Shown in pieces: positions 11,846 to 41,870 of a DNA stretch of 45,081 nucleotides. Made by a program: the position numbers and the translations under genes. Under the pieces are notes generated by a model, which was not told where the DNA came from, ran no database searches, and saw nothing but the letters and a program-made list of their open reading frames with translations. Position 1 is the first letter of the stretch. Each line of letters begins with the position of its first letter. Source of the DNA: a virus. The DNA lies in the IMG/VR virus record IMGVR_UViG_3300027720_000001, positions 1-45,081 of that record, one strand, 5' to 3'.

Positions 11846-12178
11846 ATGTTAAAGCCAAATGACAAAGTATTTACTAGGGATAACCGATACGGCGAACTAA
11901 GATACAGAGTGTTTGAAGTTGAACGTGTAACACCTACCCTTGCGATACTAAGAAACGGCACTAAGCTAAAAAACACGCTTAATATATTTGCCAAACAAAC
12001 GCCGTATTATAATGAAGTAGGGCAATCTTATAAATCCTACCATCCCATGACCGACGACATAGAAAAGGAGATAAGCCGACTAGAATTTGAGGACAAACTC
12101 AAAACTTGGTACGGAAATTTCAAGCCTACTATTGAGCAAATGACGCAAATCTATAACCTAATAAATCAAACACCATGA
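11846..12178 (+). CDS. Hypothetical protein with SH3-like N terminus
   Basis: A 110-aa protein, MLKPNDKVFTRDNRYG, whose N terminus has KOW/SH3-like strands (FEVERVTPTLAILRNGT) and whose C terminus is helical. No family is recognised. It overlaps the next start by 4 bp (ATGA). Confidence 0.6.
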   Translation: MLKPNDKVFTRDNRYGELRYRVFEVERVTPTLAILRNGTKLKNTLNIFAKQTPYYNEVGQSYKSYHPMTDDIEKEISRLEFEDKLKTWYGNFKPTIEQMTQIYNLINQTP

Positions 12179-12525
12179 TAAAGTCCTACATTTCCGCTCT
12201 GCTGACATTATTCTTATTTAGTATAGGATTTTGCAGCTTACACCACAAAAAGCCGTCACAACCTAAGCCACGACTTCAAGAGTGGATAATTCCGCTTTAT
12301 AAAGTTCAGCGTGGGGATAGTACCGTTTGGTGCGCTTTGCCTGAATATGTTTTTGAGAAAAACGAAGCCAATGTAATGAACTTCATGTGCAAGTTTCCCG
12401 ATAGCTTAGAGCGATTTAAGGAATACACTATAAAATTTCATTCAATTGGCTGTTCCGATAAACAAGCTGCAAAGGATATTGCTAAGCAGGGCTTTCTATT
12501 ATTTAACCCTCAATATGCAAAGTAA
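12175..12525 (+). CDS. Exported or membrane-anchored small protein
   Basis: A 116-aa protein with an N-terminal hydrophobic segment (SALLTLFLFSIGFC, residues 7-20) after Lys3, so it is exported or inserted in the membrane. The Cys at 20 lacks a clean lipobox. The rest is soluble and contains two further Cys. Early-region phage membrane proteins can block superinfection, but no such evidence is visible here. Confidence 0.6.
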   Translation: MIKSYISALLTLFLFSIGFCSLHHKKPSQPKPRLQEWIIPLYKVQRGDSTVWCALPEYVFEKNEANVMNFMCKFPDSLERFKEYTIKFHSIGCSDKQAAKDIAKQGFLLFNPQYAK

Positions 12526-13579: not shown

Positions 13580-14212
13580 ATGCAAATCACACCAAAAATA
13601 ACCTACACTAACGAGGACAATATGCAGCTTATGGCTCGCTATCCTGATAAGCATTTTGAACTTGCAATAGTAGACCCGCCTTATGGTATAAATATTAATA
13701 TCTCAATGGGTAGAAGAAAAGGAGATAAGAAAAGCAATTACCATAAATTTGCTGGAAATGATAGCTCAATACCTCCGAAAGAATATTTTGATGAATTATT
13801 TAGAGTATCTAAGAATCAGATTATATGGGGAGGCAATTACATGACTGAATTTTTAAAGCCTTCGCCGTGCTGGCTTCTTTGGGATAAAGGATTTTCAGAA
13901 GATGTTACTTTTGCGCAGTTTGAAATGGCTTGGACTTCATTTGATACAAGTGCTAAAAAATACGACAAATCAGCTAATCAATTAAATAGAATACGCCCCA
14001 CACAAAAGCCCGTAGCCCTATACAAATGGACTTTAGATAAGTACGCAAAGGAGGGCTATAAGATTATAGATACAAATTGCGGGAGTGCAAGTAGTATTAT
14101 AGCCTGTCACGATTATAATTTTGAGATAGTGGCTTGCGAACTTGATACCGACTACTATAATGACGGAGTTAAGCGCATCAAAAACCATATCGCACAACAA
14201 AAACTTTTCTAA
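13580..14212 (+). CDS. DNA methyltransferase (N6-adenine/N4-cytosine, beta-type order)
   Basis: A 210-aa methyltransferase. The catalytic motif DPPYG is at residues 32-36, followed by the family segment RPTQKP (139-144) and the AdoMet-binding motif DTNCGSASS (164-172) with CELD at 186-189. This order, catalytic motif before AdoMet motif, is that of compact phage methyltransferases. There is no restriction endonuclease nearby, so it is an orphan enzyme probably protecting phage DNA or marking it. Target site cannot be read from the sequence. Confidence 0.82.
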   Translation: MQITPKITYTNEDNMQLMARYPDKHFELAIVDPPYGININISMGRRKGDKKSNYHKFAGNDSSIPPKEYFDELFRVSKNQIIWGGNYMTEFLKPSPCWLLWDKGFSEDVTFAQFEMAWTSFDTSAKKYDKSANQLNRIRPTQKPVALYKWTLDKYAKEGYKIIDTNCGSASSIIACHDYNFEIVACELDTDYYNDGVKRIKNHIAQQKLF

Positions 14213-14226
14213 AATAAACCACTTTG

Positions 14227-14246
14227 ATACTTGCAAAACCAAAATA
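14227..14246 (+). repeat. 20-bp repeat ATACTTGCAAAACCAAAATA, copy 1
   Basis: Exact 20-bp sequence found again at 14731-14750 and 15096-15115. Copies 1 and 2 lie just before start codons; copy 3 forms the -33 part of the RNA promoter at 15099. They could be weak promoter elements, regulator sites or duplicated leaders. Confidence 0.8.
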
Positions 14247-14431
14247 TGAAAGACCAAACCAAGCCAACCCGCCACAAATGGGTTAAAACCCACTACGGTA
14301 AAGAGTGCGAAAAATGTGGGTCAAGGATAGACGATTCTATGCAATATAGAAGGTATCTTGAAATGACAATACAAGGATATATAAAAGTTGTGGACTGGTA
14401 TCCACGATGTTATCCACCTAAAAAAGATTAA
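14246..14431 (+). CDS. Small zinc-finger-like protein
   Basis: A 61-aa protein with HKWVKTHYGKECEKCG near residues 9-24 and a later WYPRCYPP; the CxxC pair plus His/Cys may bind zinc. Such short Cys proteins are frequent in phage early regions. The ATG at 14246 begins in the last base of the 20-bp repeat copy 1. Confidence 0.6.
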   Translation: MKDQTKPTRHKWVKTHYGKECEKCGSRIDDSMQYRRYLEMTIQGYIKVVDWYPRCYPPKKD

Positions 14432-14450: not shown

Positions 14451-14720
14451 ATGAAAATATTAAACCACGCTCAATACGTAAACCTTGCAGAGCAAAAGGA
14501 CGTATGGTATCAACTATCAGTTATAAATAAATGGGATTTTGATAGTACGCCTGTTTGTAGCAAAGTAGCGACTACTTCAATTAGTAGTGAAACAATCCAC
14601 TACAAGCTAATGCGATGCACCCCTATTGACGAAAAGCGTTACAAGTGGGAATCCGTCACAGAGCTAACGCCTGAAATGCGAGCCGCTCTAATTGCAGACG
14701 GATATATTTTATCAAAATAA
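14451..14720 (+). CDS. Hypothetical protein
   Basis: An 89-aa protein, MKILNHAQYVNLAEQKDVWY, with mixed strands and helices. No domain recognised. Start at ATG 14451 after the leader 'cacctcaagcc'. Confidence 0.6.
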   Translation: MKILNHAQYVNLAEQKDVWYQLSVINKWDFDSTPVCSKVATTSISSETIHYKLMRCTPIDEKRYKWESVTELTPEMRAALIADGYILSK

Positions 14721-14730
14721 ACCACTCCCG

Positions 14731-14750
14731 ATACTTGCAAAACCAAAATA
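14731..14750 (+). repeat. 20-bp repeat ATACTTGCAAAACCAAAATA, copy 2
   Basis: Identical to 14227-14246 and 15096-15115. It lies 4 nt before the start of the 14754 gene. Confidence 0.8.
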
Positions 14751-14753
14751 AAT

Positions 14754-15080
14754 ATGGCAATTCAATATAATAGCGATGAGATGTACGAAAAATACAGGCT
14801 CACAGATGAGCAAATAAAAGCCTGTAAAAAGGTATTCAAAGCAATGCGAGAAGCTGGAAAGCTAGGTGTTCAGTTTTGGGATATGTACGGGCAACTAACA
14901 GCCTATAACGGCAATGTATTTGAGAGATTAAATACAGATGAAGGATTTAATTCACCCACTGGTATAAAGCTAACTAACTGCGATGCAGGAGAATTGCTGT
15001 ATAGCGAGACACTAACAAACCTACGTAGCGCATCGGCTGATGATGATGTCTGGGGTGAACTCAAAGATGAAATAAAGTAA
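14754..15080 (+). CDS. Hypothetical acidic protein
   Basis: A 108-aa protein with a helical N terminus (DEQIKACKKVFKAMREAGK) and an acidic end. No domain recognised. Followed by the promoter and structured RNA at 15099-15320. Confidence 0.62.
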   Translation: MAIQYNSDEMYEKYRLTDEQIKACKKVFKAMREAGKLGVQFWDMYGQLTAYNGNVFERLNTDEGFNSPTGIKLTNCDAGELLYSETLTNLRSASADDDVWGELKDEIK

Positions 15081-15098
15081 AAAATACCTCGCTTTATA

Positions 15099-15129
15099 CT
15101 TGCAAAACCAAAATAATTGCCTATCTTTG
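15099..15129 (+). promoter_or_regulatory. Promoter for the structured RNA and helicase
   Basis: cTTG at 15099-15102, a 19-bp spacer, and TATCTTTG at 15122-15129. The expected start is near 15136. The -33 part overlaps copy 3 of the 20-bp repeat (15096-15115). Confidence 0.78.
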
Positions 15130-15135
15130 TGCATC

Positions 15136-15320
15136 AAAAGTGATGAAACAATACGTAACCGATAGAGGTCAGAGTCTAACAAGTTACATTAATCAATATA
15201 CATCTAGCCATTCAAGGCACTATAACAGGTAGGACGTAGGACTCCAGCGAAAGCTTGGTACTCTGACTTTATCCTTGCCTATCTGTTATAGTGAACTGGA
15301 TGGCTATTTTATTTTATACC
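15136..15320 (+). ncRNA. Structured leader RNA with predicted kissing-loop or pseudoknot
   Basis: This 185-nt stretch has its own promoter and no gene. Hairpin 1 pairs GTAAC (15155-15159) with GTTAC (15183-15187). Hairpin 2 pairs AGCCATTC (15206-15213) with GGATGGCT (15298-15305), then a 16-bp stem 15218-15233/15278-15293 with one G-U pair, and an inner AGC-GAAA-GCT hairpin (15246-15255). GTCAGAGT in loop 1 (15168-15175) is the exact complement of ACTCTGAC in hairpin 2 (15260-15267), extended by GATA/TATC. It ends 15 nt before the helicase start. It matches no riboswitch or ribozyme class that I recognise; cis-regulator or separate RNA are both possible. Confidence 0.75.
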
Positions 15321-16751
15321 ATGCAACCTAGACAGCATCAAATAAAACCAATAGAGATAGGTGTAGAGTTTCTAAAACAAACCGAATCGCCGCAACCTAG
15401 TATAATTGTAGCCCCTACCGCCTTTGGCAAGGCGGTACTGATAGCCTTAATACTTAATCAAGTAGAAGGCAATGTATTGATATTGCAGCCAAACATTGAG
15501 CTACTCAAACAAAACCATGAAAAATATTTTTTAGCTACTGGCGAACGTGCTGCAATTTACAGCGCATCGGCTGGCGAAAAAAGCATAGGGCGTGTAACCT
15601 TTGCGACTATTGGCAGTATTGTAAATATCGGGCAGTCTTTCGAGGGCTACAAAATGATAATAGATGAATGTCATTTATACCCTAGAAATAGCGAAAGTAT
15701 GTTTGGTAAGTTTATCACAGCGGCGCAAATTACGCACGTTTTAGGGCTTACCGCAACGCCTTTTAGATTAGAGACCAAGACTAATATTTACGGTATGAAT
15801 TACTCTAAATTAGTCATGCTTACAAGTAGCTCTAAAAAGGGTAACTTCTTTAAAAAGATTATCTATGTATCACAAATACAGGAAATCGTACAGCTTGGTT
15901 TTTGGGCTAACTTGGAATATAAAGACGCTAGTGTAATAGACCAAACTCAATTACAACTTAATTCTACTGGCAGCGACTTTACAGATAGTTCTATAAATAA
16001 CGCTATTCAAGCTAATGATGTGAATAGTTTAATGCTTAAAGAATTAGACTTACAACATGATAGAAAAAAGGTATTAGTATTTTGCTTTTCAGTTGATGAC
16101 GCTATTGCAATGTCTGAAATTACACCTAATTCCGCTGCGGTTTATGGAGATATGGACAGCAAAGACCGTAAAAGAATCATTCACGCTTTTAAAGATGGCA
16201 GTTTGCGTGTAATATTTAATGTCAATGTTTTATCGGTTGGCTTTGATAGTCCTAATATTGATTGTATTATAATGGAGCGACCTACTGCAAGTCTAGCGTG
16301 GTACTATCAAGTATTAGGGCGTGGCACTCGATTAAGTAACCTTAAAGAGAGCTGTTTAATTGTAGATTTTAGCGGCAACCTAAAACGCTTTGGTAAAATT
16401 GAGAATTTCAGATATGCCAAAAGCGGAACGACTTGGAAAATGTACGGCGAAAATGATACTGTATTGACTGGGATAGATGTACGTGATATAGGTAGCGTCT
16501 TTGATAAAAAGAAAGTCGCTATTGATGACATAGACGCAATAGAAAGCAAGCCAATAGAACAAGTATTTGAAGTTGATGCGGTTGTTCAATTTGGAAAATA
16601 TCAAGGCAGTAATGTAAGTGAATTACCTAAGCACTATATTGAATGGTGCTTAAAAGAATTTGATTGGAAGTCAAAACCCGCTAAACTTAAAAAGGCTATG
16701 GACTTTCACTTTGAGCGATTGAGTGTAAAAAATGAATCAGTAACAGTTTAA
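15321..16751 (+). CDS. DEAD/DEAH-type superfamily 2 helicase with DUF3820-like tail
   Basis: A 476-aa helicase, ATP-driven duplex-unwinding or translocating enzyme of the replication/recombination module. Motif I reads APTAFGKA (31-38), motif II DECH (115-118), motif III TATPF (144-148), motif VI QVLGRGTR (330-337). The usual Ser/Thr after the motif I lysine is Ala here, which is unusual. Residues about 430-476 (FGKYQGSNV, then YIEWCLKEFD) resemble DUF3820, a small domain usually linked to nucleases. ATG 15321 is preferred because an upstream GTG at 15291 lies inside the RNA stem. Confidence 0.82.
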   Translation: MQPRQHQIKPIEIGVEFLKQTESPQPSIIVAPTAFGKAVLIALILNQVEGNVLILQPNIELLKQNHEKYFLATGERAAIYSASAGEKSIGRVTFATIGSIVNIGQSFEGYKMIIDECHLYPRNSESMFGKFITAAQITHVLGLTATPFRLETKTNIYGMNYSKLVMLTSSSKKGNFFKKIIYVSQIQEIVQLGFWANLEYKDASVIDQTQLQLNSTGSDFTDSSINNAIQANDVNSLMLKELDLQHDRKKVLVFCFSVDDAIAMSEITPNSAAVYGDMDSKDRKRIIHAFKDGSLRVIFNVNVLSVGFDSPNIDCIIMERPTASLAWYYQVLGRGTRLSNLKESCLIVDFSGNLKRFGKIENFRYAKSGTTWKMYGENDTVLTGIDVRDIGSVFDKKKVAIDDIDAIESKPIEQVFEVDAVVQFGKYQGSNVSELPKHYIEWCLKEFDWKSKPAKLKKAMDFHFERLSVKNESVTV

Positions 16752-16762
16752 AATATAAAATC

Positions 16763-17854
16763 ATGGAAAACCACAGCTTTTCAGTTGAACTAGCAATACT
16801 TCTAACACAAGAGGGCGCAACACTTTTGCAGCATCATTACTTTTGGCATAAGCGCAACAAGTCGAATAATAAAAACTTTATTGACGGCTACCATTGGACA
16901 TATAACAGCGCATCGGCATTTTCTGAAATATTCCCCTACTTATCAGAAAAACAGATAAGAAGCCTACATGAGAATTTTATCGCTTGTGGCTTTATGGTAA
17001 AAGGTAACTATAATAAAAACAAATGTGACCGCAGTCAATGGTTTGCGCTTACGGAATTTGGCGTATCTATCTTTGAAAATTGGAATTTACCAAAAGTCTA
17101 TTCCATGTTACAAAATGTAAAATGGATATTCCAAAATGTAAAATCCAAGAGCAAAAAAGTAAAATCCATTTACCTAGAAGTAACACCTATACCAGATGTA
17201 AAACCAAATGTAAACACAGATGTAAATTCAGATAGTAAAGAGAGTGTCGTAACCGACACGCCCCCACTTCAAACCAACTTATCGGAAATTCCGACAGGTT
17301 CAAATTTCAGTACTTCGGAAAAGCCGAACAACTCAAAAAATGAAACTTCTGCTTTAAAAGAAAAAAGCAAAGCCGAAAAAACAAACTCGGGGGGCGGCGG
17401 CGAAAATGTTGGTAAGTCTGTTAGCGAAGTGGATAAGCCTGCAAAGCCGAAAAAAGCCGTTAGGGAATGGTTTAAACTAAGTAGTTTGACCGAAGAGCAA
17501 AAAGATAAAATTCGAGAGCTTGCAAGGAGCTTTGATAGCCCCGCAGTATTTGGCGAAAGTTTACGCCAATGGCTCGAATACAAAGAGGCGGGCGAAATCA
17601 ATTTTAGAAACCAAAAGATAAACCCCTATAAGAACTTTGAAACAATGCTTAAAGAGGTTACAAGCGAGGTGAACAAGTGCAAAGGGCAAAGCGAAGTTTT
17701 TAAACAAGCCGTGCAACATAGCATTGACAAGCTTTATCTAGGGCTATTTCCCGAAAAATTTATCACTCAAACACAAACTGTAAAAAATGGAAATTACAAC
17801 AAACAACAGCAAGGAAACGTACAGCCTACAATCATATTTAAAACAGGCTGTTAG
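16763..17854 (+). CDS. Replisome organizer / replication initiation-like protein
   Basis: A 363-aa protein. Residues 1-115 resemble the winged-helix N terminus of phage replication initiators (EIFPYLSEKQIRSLHENFI, then FALTEFG). A long low-complexity Ser/Lys/Asn linker follows (about 135-230), and a C-terminal helical domain (WFKLSSLTEEQKDKIREL) could load the helicase. It lies 11 bp after the helicase gene. The linker contains a Gly run (GGGG). Function is inferred from architecture and position. Confidence 0.6.
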   Translation: MENHSFSVELAILLTQEGATLLQHHYFWHKRNKSNNKNFIDGYHWTYNSASAFSEIFPYLSEKQIRSLHENFIACGFMVKGNYNKNKCDRSQWFALTEFGVSIFENWNLPKVYSMLQNVKWIFQNVKSKSKKVKSIYLEVTPIPDVKPNVNTDVNSDSKESVVTDTPPLQTNLSEIPTGSNFSTSEKPNNSKNETSALKEKSKAEKTNSGGGGENVGKSVSEVDKPAKPKKAVREWFKLSSLTEEQKDKIRELARSFDSPAVFGESLRQWLEYKEAGEINFRNQKINPYKNFETMLKEVTSEVNKCKGQSEVFKQAVQHSIDKLYLGLFPEKFITQTQTVKNGNYNKQQQGNVQPTIIFKTGC

Positions 17855-21702: not shown

Positions 21703-21786
21703 TGGGGTGTGGCGAAAGTGGTAAACGCAGCGGTTTTAGACGCCGTCACTTGAAAAAGTTTGCCCGTTCGAGTCGGGCTATCCCAA
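21703..21786 (+). tRNA. tRNA-Leu (anticodon TAG)
   Basis: All arms fold: acceptor TGGGGTG/TATCCCA, D stem GCG/CGC, anticodon stem GCGGT/GCCGT, loop TTTAGAC with U33 and anticodon TAG, a long variable arm (ACTT-GAAA-AAGT) as in type II tRNAs, and T stem GCCCG/CGGGC with TTCGAGT. Discriminator A, as leucine tRNAs have. CCA is not encoded. Confidence 0.85.
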
Positions 21787-21861
21787 CGAAGTAAGTTATC
21801 GTTATGCTGCAATAGTGCATAAGCTAACACTTTTAAACGCCGCTGGTAAGGCGGCAATTAT

Positions 21862-23295: not shown

Positions 23296-23512
23296 TTTAT
23301 CCCGTGAGCATCAGCAAATGCAAACCGAATTGTATGGGCGCATTGATGCAGAACACCGCAAAATAAGAGATGCGAAGTTATTATTTAGACTGAAAGTAAC
23401 TCTATTTGCTGCCGTAGTGCTATTAAGCTGCATAGGCATATCTAAGTGTCAATCTGAACAAGCGGCTAAGGAAAAAGAAATCGAATTGGAATGTAAACCC
23501 GTTAATCAGTAA
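23279..23512 (+). CDS. Small single-helix membrane protein
   Basis: A 77-aa protein with one helix near 42-60 (VTLFAAVVLLSCIGISKC). N terminus charged, C terminus acidic. A lipobox-like LLSC lies inside the hydrophobic segment but the charged N terminus is long for a signal peptide. It overlaps the resolvase by 17 bp. ATG 23279 is used because it follows the A-rich leader. Confidence 0.55.
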   Translation: MKPNPNLSREHQQMQTELYGRIDAEHRKIRDAKLLFRLKVTLFAAVVLLSCIGISKCQSEQAAKEKEIELECKPVNQ

Positions 23513-24312: not shown

Positions 24313-24396
24313 TGGGGTGTGATGGAAGTGGGAGACATTAGAGACGTGGTTCTCTAATTGCTGAGGCAAATGCAGGTTCGAATCCTGCCGCCCCAA
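24313..24396 (+). tRNA. Type II tRNA-like element with shortened anticodon loop
   Basis: Acceptor TGGGGTG/CGCCCCA, D stem ATG/CAT, variable arm TTGC-TGAG-GCAA, T stem GCAGG/CCTGC with TTCGAAT, discriminator A. The anticodon arm is TTAGAGA/TCTCTAA with loop CGTGGT, only 6 nt and without U33. By type II form it should be Leu, Ser or Tyr, but the loop carries GTG or TGG. Identity is therefore undetermined. Confidence 0.6.
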
Positions 24397-24401
24397 CAAA
24401 G

Positions 24402-24475
24402 GCGTGTGTAGTGTAAGACGGTAACGCACTTGGCGTGGAGTCAAGAGATTGTTAGTTCGAATCTAACCACACGTC
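24402..24475 (+). tRNA. Type I tRNA-like element, anticodon TGG by position, G33
   Basis: Acceptor GCGTGTG/CACACGT, D stem GTGT/ACGC, anticodon stem CTTGG/TCAAG, variable AGATT, T stem GTTAG/CTAAC with TTCGAAT, and CCA encoded by chance or design at 24476-24478. The loop CGTGGAG has G at position 33. By count the anticodon is TGG (proline), while an extra G before position 1 opposite C73 is a histidine-tRNA mark. The identity is open. Confidence 0.65.
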
Positions 24476-24505
24476 CCAACTAGGGTTTATTAACATTGAC
24501 ATGGT

Positions 24506-24541: not shown

Positions 24542-24616
24542 CGGGATGTATCTTAATTGGTAGAGGGCGCTGGCTAATAACTGGCGAGGATATGGGTTCG
24601 ACTCCCTTCAACCCGA
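24542..24616 (+). tRNA. tRNA-Ile-like (anticodon AAT)
   Basis: Acceptor CGGGATG/CAACCCG with one A-A mismatch, D stem TCTT/AGGG and loop with GG, anticodon stem GCTGG/CTGGC, loop CTAATAA with U33 and A37, T stem ATGGG/CCCTT with one mismatch, discriminator A. The anticodon would be AAT (Ile), unusual in bacteria where GAT is standard. Confidence 0.62.
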
Positions 24617-24636
24617 CAATTTTAAAAACAACAAAG

Positions 24637-27137: not shown

Positions 27138-27233
27138 TATCTTTGTGTATTAAACGAGAATATTTTAAGTAGCTTTTTTGAATTTGTAACTATGCCAACT
27201 GTAAAGCGAGTATAGTTTTTATTTAGACTAAAT
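27138..27233 (+). promoter_or_regulatory. Promoter plus ATTTAG-A-CTAAAT palindrome
   Basis: TATCTTTG at 27138-27145 is a good -7 box with a weak -33. ATTTAGACTAAAT at 27221-27233 is a 6-1-6 palindrome, 13 nt before the start at 27246. The same palindrome with T in the centre is at 27935-27947. The 213-bp stretch 27033-27245 otherwise holds no gene. Confidence 0.6.
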
Positions 27234-27245
27234 ATAAATAATATT

Positions 27246-27885: not shown

Positions 27886-27947
27886 TATCTTTGCTTTTAA
27901 TTAGTCTAAATAAGTATGGTATAATACTATATAGATTTAGTCTAAAT
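27886..27947 (+). promoter_or_regulatory. Late promoter with two CTAAAT operators
   Basis: TATCTTTG at 27886-27893 precedes TTAGTCTAAAT at 27901-27911 and ATTTAGTCTAAAT (6-1-6 palindrome) at 27935-27947. The first site is right at the expected start. A regulator bound here would control the terminase-tail operon. Confidence 0.65.
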
Positions 27948-27976
27948 AACAGAGACCAAACAGAGAAGTATATGAT

Positions 27977-35760: not shown

Positions 35761-37341
35761 ATGGCAGTATTTTCACTATACCCCGACACAGAAACACCTG
35801 CACATAATTGTGTGGTTTGGGGATTACTTTATGAAGGTGGCACAAGTTACCCCGGTTCACAAGCTAGCGCAACAATTACTTTTGATAGTGGCGGAACTGC
35901 TACGGCTGGCACAGTCGTATATTTTTGCGGTCAAAAGTTTGTAACAGATTCGGGCTTTGGCGTAAATGATGGCTATTCGTTTAATTATAATGGGCTATCG
36001 GACACCGACAGAGTGGCAGCATTTTTGGAGACATTAAACGCTACTCTTTTCTTTTCTCGTGATAGAGTAAGTTTTTTTAGTGCGGGCAACTCTATTGCAG
36101 TTACTTTTAATCAAGTAGGCGAACAATCAAACTGGACTTTCTCAGATGGCGGCATTAGTGAAATATCCTTTATTCAAATTAATGGAGACGGACAGACTTA
36201 TGATAAAAATCCTAAATATATACACGCTTTGTATAGGGATATGACTAGTGTTAGCTTGCCGCCTATTAAACTAACACAAGATAAGGAATCCGCTATAATA
36301 CTAAATAAAGACTACACGGTATCAAGCCCCGCAACTGAAACTTATTTACCTACGCTAGTGGATTACTCAATCGAAATGAGTAATTTAGTCGCTACACATT
36401 TGCCTAATATCTACGGCGCAAATTGGACACCAGTATTAGATACAACATTTACAATGGATGTATTTTTGCGAGCGGGCTATTCTTATCTAGTTGGGTGTGA
36501 AAGACGTAATGTTTTTTTCTCAGATAGCGGCACGATTAAAATATACAATTGTTTATTTCAAAAAGAAAAATACACAGTCAGCGACCCTTTAATGTTGCCA
36601 TATACAGCGCAAGGCAAATTGATGCTCATTAAAGACCGTTATCAAATTTGTAGAAGTACTAACTTTGCTGTTTGGACGGCTTTTGTAGAGGGTTATGATA
36701 GTATAGATGTGGTTTACTATGATGTGTCAGGTGGGGAGTTAGAAAGCGTTTCTTATGATTGGGGTGTATTGATGGGTATTACTTATACAAATGTCGGTAC
36801 TTTTGGAAGTGCCGCACCCGCTAATTGCGACCACTATATTGTCAATTTTATTAATGCCGACTTTGATATAATAGAGGCAGTGCGCTTTGACTTGATTAGC
36901 TGCGGCTGCATAGATGGCGAATTGATATTTTTATCTGATTTAGGGTGTTATGAAACATTTCTACTAACGAATAATACAAGAACAGAGCTAACAGTTAATA
37001 GTGATACGGTGCAAGGCTTTGACGGCTGTAATGTTTTCAGCTTACAGCAAGGCGGTAGGAGTATTGTAAATAAGCAGACAGAAAATATCTATACTTATGA
37101 GACATGGGTAGATACAAGCGATCCAAAAGAACTAGAATATGTAAATCAATTGTTGCGTTCACAGTCTGTTTTCTTAAAGGTATTCATTGAAGAAGCCGAT
37201 GCATGGTTTTATGTGAAAATTAATGCAGAAAATACTAACTTTGTGCCGCTAGAAACTGGTAAGCGTGCAAAGCTTACTTATTCGTTTAAATTTAATCAAG
37301 CGTATAAATCGCACCCCCAATATGAAGCAGTTTTTATTTAG
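35761..37341 (+). CDS. Distal tail / minor tail protein
   Basis: A 526-aa beta-rich protein directly after the tape measure, the usual place for the distal tail protein. Short conserved-looking segments are ISCGCIDGELIFLSDLGCYE near 376-395 and FYVKINAENTNFV near the end. Related tail proteins of Bacteroidetes phages have a similar 'C-C-x-x-x-x-L-x-x-L-G-x-(Y/F)' strip. It overlaps the lipoprotein gene by 20 bp. Confidence 0.65.
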   Translation: MAVFSLYPDTETPAHNCVVWGLLYEGGTSYPGSQASATITFDSGGTATAGTVVYFCGQKFVTDSGFGVNDGYSFNYNGLSDTDRVAAFLETLNATLFFSRDRVSFFSAGNSIAVTFNQVGEQSNWTFSDGGISEISFIQINGDGQTYDKNPKYIHALYRDMTSVSLPPIKLTQDKESAIILNKDYTVSSPATETYLPTLVDYSIEMSNLVATHLPNIYGANWTPVLDTTFTMDVFLRAGYSYLVGCERRNVFFSDSGTIKIYNCLFQKEKYTVSDPLMLPYTAQGKLMLIKDRYQICRSTNFAVWTAFVEGYDSIDVVYYDVSGGELESVSYDWGVLMGITYTNVGTFGSAAPANCDHYIVNFINADFDIIEAVRFDLISCGCIDGELIFLSDLGCYETFLLTNNTRTELTVNSDTVQGFDGCNVFSLQQGGRSIVNKQTENIYTYETWVDTSDPKELEYVNQLLRSQSVFLKVFIEEADAWFYVKINAENTNFVPLETGKRAKLTYSFKFNQAYKSHPQYEAVFI

Positions 37342-37696
37342 TCTTAGTCTAATTAGTGTATTCTTTGCGTCATGCGCTCCAAAAGAAGTTGCCATTGAAA
37401 AACAATTAATAGGACGCTACACGGTAAATCGTGCGCAATGCGGTAGCGATACTTCAAACTTTATGTTACACGTGTTTGAGAGCTTTGAATTAATGCAAGA
37501 TGGCATCGGTTACGATGGCTTACAATCAAATGATAAAGCCTTTGAATGGGTAGTAATTGAAGACAAATTAGAATTGTGCTACACAACTAGCAGCGCATCA
37601 ATTGAACTACCTTTTAGATTAAGCGGCGATACTTTAATTTTAAGCCGTTCTAATCAATTTTGCCCACATTTAGACGTTTTTTATGTCCGAAATTAG
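37322..37696 (+). CDS. Lipoprotein inside the tail operon
   Basis: A 125-aa protein with a bacterial lipoprotein signal: MKQFLFSLSLISVFFASC, hydrophobic core 4-15 and lipobox FASC with Cys18. The mature part is beta-rich with two further Cys. The ATG at 37322 is chosen for the signal peptide; a longer frame from 37265 would hide it. It overlaps both neighbours (20 bp and 14 bp), so it is read with the late tail genes. Phage lipoproteins of this kind can block superinfection by binding receptors or tail tips (Llp of T5, Ltp of TP-J34); here this is inferred. Confidence 0.72.
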   Translation: MKQFLFSLSLISVFFASCAPKEVAIEKQLIGRYTVNRAQCGSDTSNFMLHVFESFELMQDGIGYDGLQSNDKAFEWVVIEDKLELCYTTSSASIELPFRLSGDTLILSRSNQFCPHLDVFYVRN

Positions 37697-41748: not shown

Positions 41749-41785
41749 CATTTTGGCAGTTATTTTTAAATTATTTTCTATTTGT

Positions 41786-41870
41786 ACTAAGTCTAAATAA
41801 AAACTGTATAAAATTCAATACGATTTCAATCATTTGACTTTACATAATGTTAGGATTATGCGTTACTTTG
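41786..41870 (+). promoter_or_regulatory. Late head-operon promoter with CTAAAT half-palindrome
   Basis: A degenerate ACTAAGTCTAAAT at 41786-41798, related to the 27935 palindrome, lies upstream of TTTA (41839-41842), 20 bp, TTACTTTG (41863-41870). The start of the S49 protease gene follows at 41891. The whole stretch 41675-41890 is a divergent control region. Confidence 0.55.

Follow-up and report, generated by a model that had tools for sequence, protein, structure and literature searches.

The phage genome analysed here (45,081 nt, hereafter the window; IMG/VR record IMGVR_UViG_3300027720_000001), which is judged to be complete and circular from the 127-nt direct terminal repeat in its IMG/VR record, contains directly upstream of a helicase gene a structured RNA element that we consider fairly likely to be a far-diverged antisense RNA locus of the c4 type that controls the phage replication operon. 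The element resembles c4-type loci in the order of its parts, the promoter type, the short leader ORF, the U-tract and the target gene, and further in the GAAA sub-hairpin, the antisense strand located just 3' of this sub-hairpin and the a1-b1/b'-a' polarity of the complementary blocks (Table 1). An apparently unknown RNA thereby becomes a candidate switch on a phage replication operon.

Table 1. Parts of the RNA element and the genes that follow it (positions in the window)
Feature	Position	Strand	Basis or remark
Promoter-like: TTGC 15100-15103, TATCTTTG 15122-15129	15100-15129	+	Sequence, pattern search
29-codon leader ORF (MKQYVTDRGQSLTSYINQYTSSHSRHYNR, then stop)	15143-15232	+	Stop within the 5' arm of the hairpin
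Leader hairpin GUAAC/GUUAC, target blocks shown in its loop	15155-15187	+	MFE fold, unpaired probabilities
a1-like block GAUAGA, partner 15268-15273	15161-15166	+	Order 5'-a1-b1-3' as in c4-2 relatives
b1-like block GUCAGAGU	15168-15175	+	Exact complement of 15260-15267
c4-like hairpin RNA	15205-15308	+	MFE fold, ensemble
Outer stem	about 15205-15214/15299-15308	+	MFE fold
16-bp P1 stem	15218-15233/15278-15293	+	MFE fold
AGGA/UCCU pairing	15238-15241/15272-15275	+	Fold
P2-like hairpin, GAAA tetraloop (CCAGC GAAA GCUUGG)	15244-15258	+	Fold
Antisense strand: b'-like ACUCUGAC 15260-15267, a'-like UUUAUC 15268-15273	15259-15273	+	Pairing, ensemble
U-rich tract TATTTTATTTTAT after the stem, intrinsic-terminator-like RNA end	15307-15319	+	Sequence
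SF2 helicase (ResIII/Helicase_C), presumed regulated gene	15321-16751	+	Pfam and PHROGs; homologous gene follows c4-2 RNAs
Replication initiation protein, next gene in presumed operon	16763-17854	+	phrog_11233, E 1.9e-22

An earlier sequence-only reading of this DNA had described a consensus promoter, a 16-bp stem, an outer stem and a GAAA-loop hairpin ahead of the helicase gene, and all of these parts were recovered: the TTGC and TATCTTTG motifs are present, both stems belong to the MFE fold, and the GAAA hairpin lies within it. The TATCTTTG motif is a Bacteroidetes-type TAnnTTTG box, a pattern for which the pattern search found 8 instances in the window, compared with about 3 expected, and the transcript is expected to start near 15135. 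Many of the c4-2 RNAs discussed below are likewise preceded by a -7 box of this kind and a short 5' leader. A Bacteroidales host is inferred from the TAnnTTTG boxes and from related prophages, which reside in Dysgonomonas, Phocaeicola coprocola and other Bacteroidales. The short leader ORF spans the leader; its frame does not reach the helicase gene and stops inside the hairpin. A 38-nt element (containing GATACTTGCAAAACCAAAATAA) occurs three times in the window, at 14210-14247, 14714-14751 and 15079-15116; two of the copies immediately precede an ATG (near 14246 and near 14754), and the remaining one lies just upstream of the promoter of the window RNA. The repeated element could serve as a promoter/5' leader unit specific to the phage, or as a repeat bound by a protein.

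The fold is exceptionally stable. With an MFE of -54.1 kcal/mol, the segment 15136-15323 surpasses all of 200 shuffles (z -4.0), and the 110-nt stretch from 15201 is the most stable in the genome, at -47.7 compared with -41.5 for the next one (4498 stretches). The end of the hairpin is separated from the helicase ATG (15321) by 12 nt, with the U-tract finishing just before the ATG. A simple terminator scan made no call at the hairpin with the U-tract, because the loop limit of the scan excludes such a hairpin.

The exact 8-nt complement between 15168-15175 and 15260-15267 that had been noticed at the outset is indeed present, as is its GATA/TATC extension, in which GATA starts at 15161; together, 15161-15175 and 15260-15273 form 14 bp interrupted by a single bulged G, and 5 more bp are possible between 15180-15184 and 15253-15257, for a total of -21.8 kcal/mol. 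Shuffling the leader matches this energy in 2 of 2000 cases, and shuffling the other strand does so in 31 of 2000. Across the whole genome, none of the 6398 other 69-nt segments of the plus strand pairs equally well (the best of these reaches -21.3), and 19 of 6396 segments of the minus strand equal the pairing energy of the leader with the antisense strand. Taken alone, the 8-nt match is weak evidence, being not rare by itself (327 of 5000 shuffles, or 6.5%, attain 8 nt). In the ensemble prediction, both 8-nt partners are mostly unpaired. Within the leader ORF, the target blocks correspond to roughly codons 7-11, and no second target was found at the helicase start, where the best pairing amounts to -9.2 kcal/mol. 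Nine nucleotides at another gene start in the window (12175-12186, AUGAUAAAGUC) also complement the antisense strand of the window RNA; this gene start was rejected as a second target given that a 9-nt match is about the chance level.

An alignment-based search for homologues of the helicase found 80 loci among viral contigs and a further 37 among bacterial genomes, and a large group of these loci contains a hairpin RNA of about 80 nt directly 5' of the helicase gene. The helicases of Bacteroidales phages and prophages with such an RNA show 45-48% identity to the window helicase, and none of the loci retrieved was closer than 49%. Many helicase loci have overlapping genes instead; for example, phages BS-TP2 and csAssE-Sib possess the helicase in a set of overlapping genes that leaves no space for an RNA. 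Nine of the 16 helicase loci scanned exceed the Rfam cut-off (41 bits, the gathering threshold) for c4-2 (RF02944, clan CL00128), and a model derived from 17 members retrieved 36 copies. The c4-2 structure in these relatives is real: 95.1% of the cells in the alignment of the 36 copies are paired, two-sided changes occur in 16 of the 20 pairs, the covariation score is 0.658 compared with 0.189 for shuffles and at most 0.143 for slid controls, and none of 500 shuffles attains any of five structure measures. A T-run directly follows P1 in nearly all relatives. Homologues that keep the position and lose the pairings had been named as a finding that would refute the original reading; the c4-2 relatives show the opposite, a result that concerns the pairs of the relatives only, whereas the own pairs of the window RNA are without covariation because no close homologue was found.

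Two side observations concern the same loci. A conserved palindrome, TGATTA-N5-TAATCA, is located about 60-90 nt 5' of the c4-2 RNA in L016, L018, L033, L040, L053, L106, L108 and others, where it coincides with the promoter from which the c4-2 RNA and the helicase are expressed and resembles a repressor operator; none was seen in the window. A second c4-2-like type with a far longer P3 (L037:1695-1794, L107:2133-2227, L127:2132-2227 and L129:1935-2037) lies farther out, about 0.8-1.3 kb 5' of the helicase gene and ahead of another small gene.

In the relatives, the P3 loop CUGUU and the single strand GGUUA that follows it are complementary to AACAG and UAACC near the 5' end of the transcript, and the block order is that expected of the a1b1 of c4. 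The a1/a' pair UAACC/GGUUA covaries to GACC/GGUC: the leader contains GACC in 4 of the 5 loci with GGUC and in 1 of the 26 other loci (Fisher p 0.0008, uncorrected for kinship). For the second pair, b1 ACAG/b' CUGU, ACAG is present in 26 of 36 leaders compared with 11.2 expected (shuffle maximum 18), immediately 5' of the AUG of the short leader ORF. Both blocks are repeated 5' of the helicase AUG in some loci (L033, L050, L052 and L116), and an obvious b2 is absent in 22 of the 32 helicase-type c4-2 loci. When own and foreign leader/loop duplex energies were compared across the c4-2 loci, both blocks proved to be nearly constant in the helicase group. Among 17 c4-2 copies taken from 393 Bacteroidales genomes irrespective of the helicase, 16 of which were tested, the two-block rule likewise applies, with letters specific to the locus: of the 16, 7 have a complement upstream of the RNA at p <= 0.05 and 5 have one downstream. 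In one of these loci (L160), UCAAAGUAUU-AUG 5' of the RNA and UCAAAGUAU-c-AUG 3' of the RNA both complement its P3 loop, and two others (L159 and L170) similarly have complements on both sides. This arrangement is the one reported for the c4 RNA of phages P1 and P7.

Translation of the leader is the other recurrent feature. A frame was counted as open if it continued through the RNA and ended no more than 4 nt short of the helicase AUG, or passed it; this applies to the leader frame of 21 of 31 c4-2 loci, compared with 6 of 62 for the other two frames (p 1.5e-8). Many of the open frames end on the helicase AUG (AUGA), and six are fused to the helicase gene. Since the peptide frame differs among the loci, it seems to be the translation of the leader rather than its peptide that is conserved. 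In the loci L039, L041, L017, L022, L106 and L113, the ORF that contains the c4-2 RNA is joined in frame to the helicase gene, which makes the structured RNA coding sequence as well. These results provide an explicit and testable mechanism for c4-2 RNAs in phages of Bacteroidales, namely locus-specific two-block antisense pairing at the leader start codon that is sometimes repeated at the start of the next gene, with the leader frame kept open into the helicase.

The c4 antisense RNA is a switch with which phages silence an operon of their own. In phage P1, c4 is located upstream of its target operon in the same orientation, is processed by RNase P, controls icd/ant and, through the block of translation, affects transcription as well. 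In P1/P7, the a' and b' loops of c4 bind the target mRNA, with b' masking the ribosome-binding site and a' determining specificity (PMC5320573); c4-type motifs are listed in PMC2864571. The window element shares with c4 (RF01695) and the c4-a1b1 motif the use of a phage-encoded RNA with a'/b' segments antisense to the target mRNA, and differs from P1 c4 in that the presumed target is a replication helicase, rather than icd/ant, and in that it has no Rfam match. The c4-2 family is related to the c4 RNA of P1/P7 and was reportedly described by Weinberg et al. in 2017. Both c4-2 and the window RNA consist of a hairpin with an outer stem and a GAAA-loop P2, followed by a T-run and situated before homologous helicases of Bacteroidales phages, and in both, the antisense strand is complementary to a1-b1 blocks in a leader that contains a short ORF. 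Unlike c4-2, the window RNA has no model score and no P3, its P1 is an uninterrupted 16-bp stem combined with an outer stem, its leader is longer, and its targets lie inside the leader ORF, whereas those of the c4-2 relatives lie just before the AUG of this ORF.

Formal assignment to these families gave a mixed outcome. The window RNA matched neither Rfam c4-2 nor Rfam c4, whether at the gathering threshold or at E 10, and our own covariance models R1 and R2 (17 and 36 members) reached at most 2.7 bits at the window RNA on the plus strand. An R2 match on the minus strand (11 bits, E 0.006 for 351 bases) was rejected as a backward reading of the near-palindromic long stem; it is absent from the whole-window search, and the promoter, the U-tract and the gene order all belong to the plus strand. 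Rfam hits in the window to snR5 (E 1.2) and TtnuCD29 (E 8.3) were considered to be due to chance, both being eukaryotic snoRNA families. Among the diagnostic features of c4-2, the P1/P1b outer stems are present, yet P1 is uninterrupted unlike the consensus; the GAAA-loop P2 is present; and no P3 stem is formed, 15259-15271 being predicted as single-stranded. Among those of c4-type elements in general, the two-block complementarity of an a1-b1 leader to a b'-a' RNA is found here on one strand, and the RNA is located upstream of, and co-oriented with, the presumed regulated phage operon. Given the lack of an Rfam or own-model score, of P3 and of a second target, and the position of the targets inside the leader ORF, the window element is not filed as c4-2 or c4 and is not a proven member of either family. 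DNA searches for homologues of the window RNA among phage records yielded chance matches only, and the use of the proteins of neighbouring genes as anchors found no relatives. Two DNA patterns derived from the window RNA produced 22 matches in viral contigs, none upstream of a close helicase; two of the 22 hold helicases, distant ones only (27-28%).

A bridge to the window element is offered by L014 (IMG/VR 3300027991_000002), whose helicase is among those closest to that of the window (48%). No covariance match to c4-2 was obtained in L014; nevertheless, a strand of its hairpin, GUCACAGAUUC, contains a 10-nt complement to the leader start (AGAAUCUGUGAUG) and a 10-nt complement to the helicase start (AAUCUGUGACUAUG). 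As in the window, an inner hairpin strand is complementary to the leader; in contrast to the window, the targets coincide exactly with the start codons of the leader and the helicase, the hairpin is simpler and its sequence is unlike. The two-target pairing of L014, found without a c4-2 match, therefore indicates that at this locus the antisense plan can outlast change of both sequence and fold.

Under the c4-type interpretation, the single promoter would give rise to a transcript comprising a short translated leader, the hairpin RNA with its terminator-like U-tract, and the helicase and initiator genes. Termination, or processing, would free the hairpin RNA, whose strand 15260-15273 could then bind the leader blocks 15161-15175 on new transcripts, possibly along with its own leader in cis. 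Such binding would be predicted to halt translation of the leader, so that, with no ribosomes entering the hairpin, the stem would form, transcription would stop at the U-tract and no helicase would be made; when the leader is translated, ribosomes would unwind the stem at its 5' arm, allowing the operon to be read. If the RNA sets immunity, a few antisense letters would predict mutual exclusion among gut Bacteroidales phages.

The sequence-only reading had proposed, among other options, that the element regulates the helicase in cis or is a regulatory RNA in its own right, and what occupies the same place in homologous phages lends support to this general notion. The main rival to the c4-type interpretation is a purely cis-acting attenuator or pseudoknotted helicase leader, in which intramolecular pairing switches either the terminator-like stem or the start of the helicase and no free antisense RNA is involved. 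This possibility, which we rate as rather unlikely, would account for the proximity of two unpaired partners on one transcript, for a leader ORF that terminates in the stem, for the U-tract 5' of the helicase and for the lack of a second target at the helicase start; however, the RNAs that relatives carry at this position match an antisense family already known, and several of these relatives, as well as L014, carry targets on both sides of the RNA, an arrangement that fits a trans-acting RNA. Another explanation, an ordinary strong terminator or a DNA inverted repeat (for instance, an origin or a binding site) with an accidental leader complement, is compatible with the share of shuffled leaders that attain an 8-nt match (6.5%) and with the lack of an exact homologue that could display conservation of the pairing. 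We deem it improbable, considering that the extended pairing is so rare among both leader shuffles and other plus-strand segments, that the hairpin stands behind a promoter and contains a second GAAA hairpin, and that regulatory RNAs occupy the same place in the homologues.

The suggestion that the element could be a new RNA class, made on the grounds that no known phage leader has this layout, does not hold up well: leader block, hairpin RNA, the complement between the two and target gene are arranged as in c4 antisense RNAs, and c4-2 matches were obtained at nine homologous loci. A class unrelated to c4 would agree with the failure of the Rfam and covariance models, the missing P3 and the different placement of the targets, but the gene context, the part order and the antisense logic are all those of c4-2, and L014 exemplifies a c4-type locus at the helicase that has lost all sequence resemblance; we consider such a class highly implausible. 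The window RNA is probably an unusual, strongly diverged relative of the known c4 device, which may either descend from c4-2 RNAs or mimic them. A further, tentative possibility is that the window and L014 elements represent separate RNA families that either evolved independently or diverged beyond recognition under diversifying pressure associated with immunity specificity. Were this the case, which we regard as somewhat doubtful, sequence and stem layout would turn over while the antisense logic stays, and no current model would find the families.

Several other features were recorded elsewhere in the window. It encodes tRNA-Leu(TAG) at 21703-21787, tRNA-Pro(TGG) at 24402-24478 and tRNA-Ile(AAT) at 24542-24617, along with an 85-nt tRNA gene with an odd anticodon at 24313-24397 (ARAGORN 'tRNA-???'). 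A motif resembling TTTATTTAGACTAAATATAAATA is repeated at 23376-23402, 27214-27240, 37329-37355 and 41773-41799, with an inverted copy at 27914-27949; these direct and inverted repeats look like operators or late promoters.
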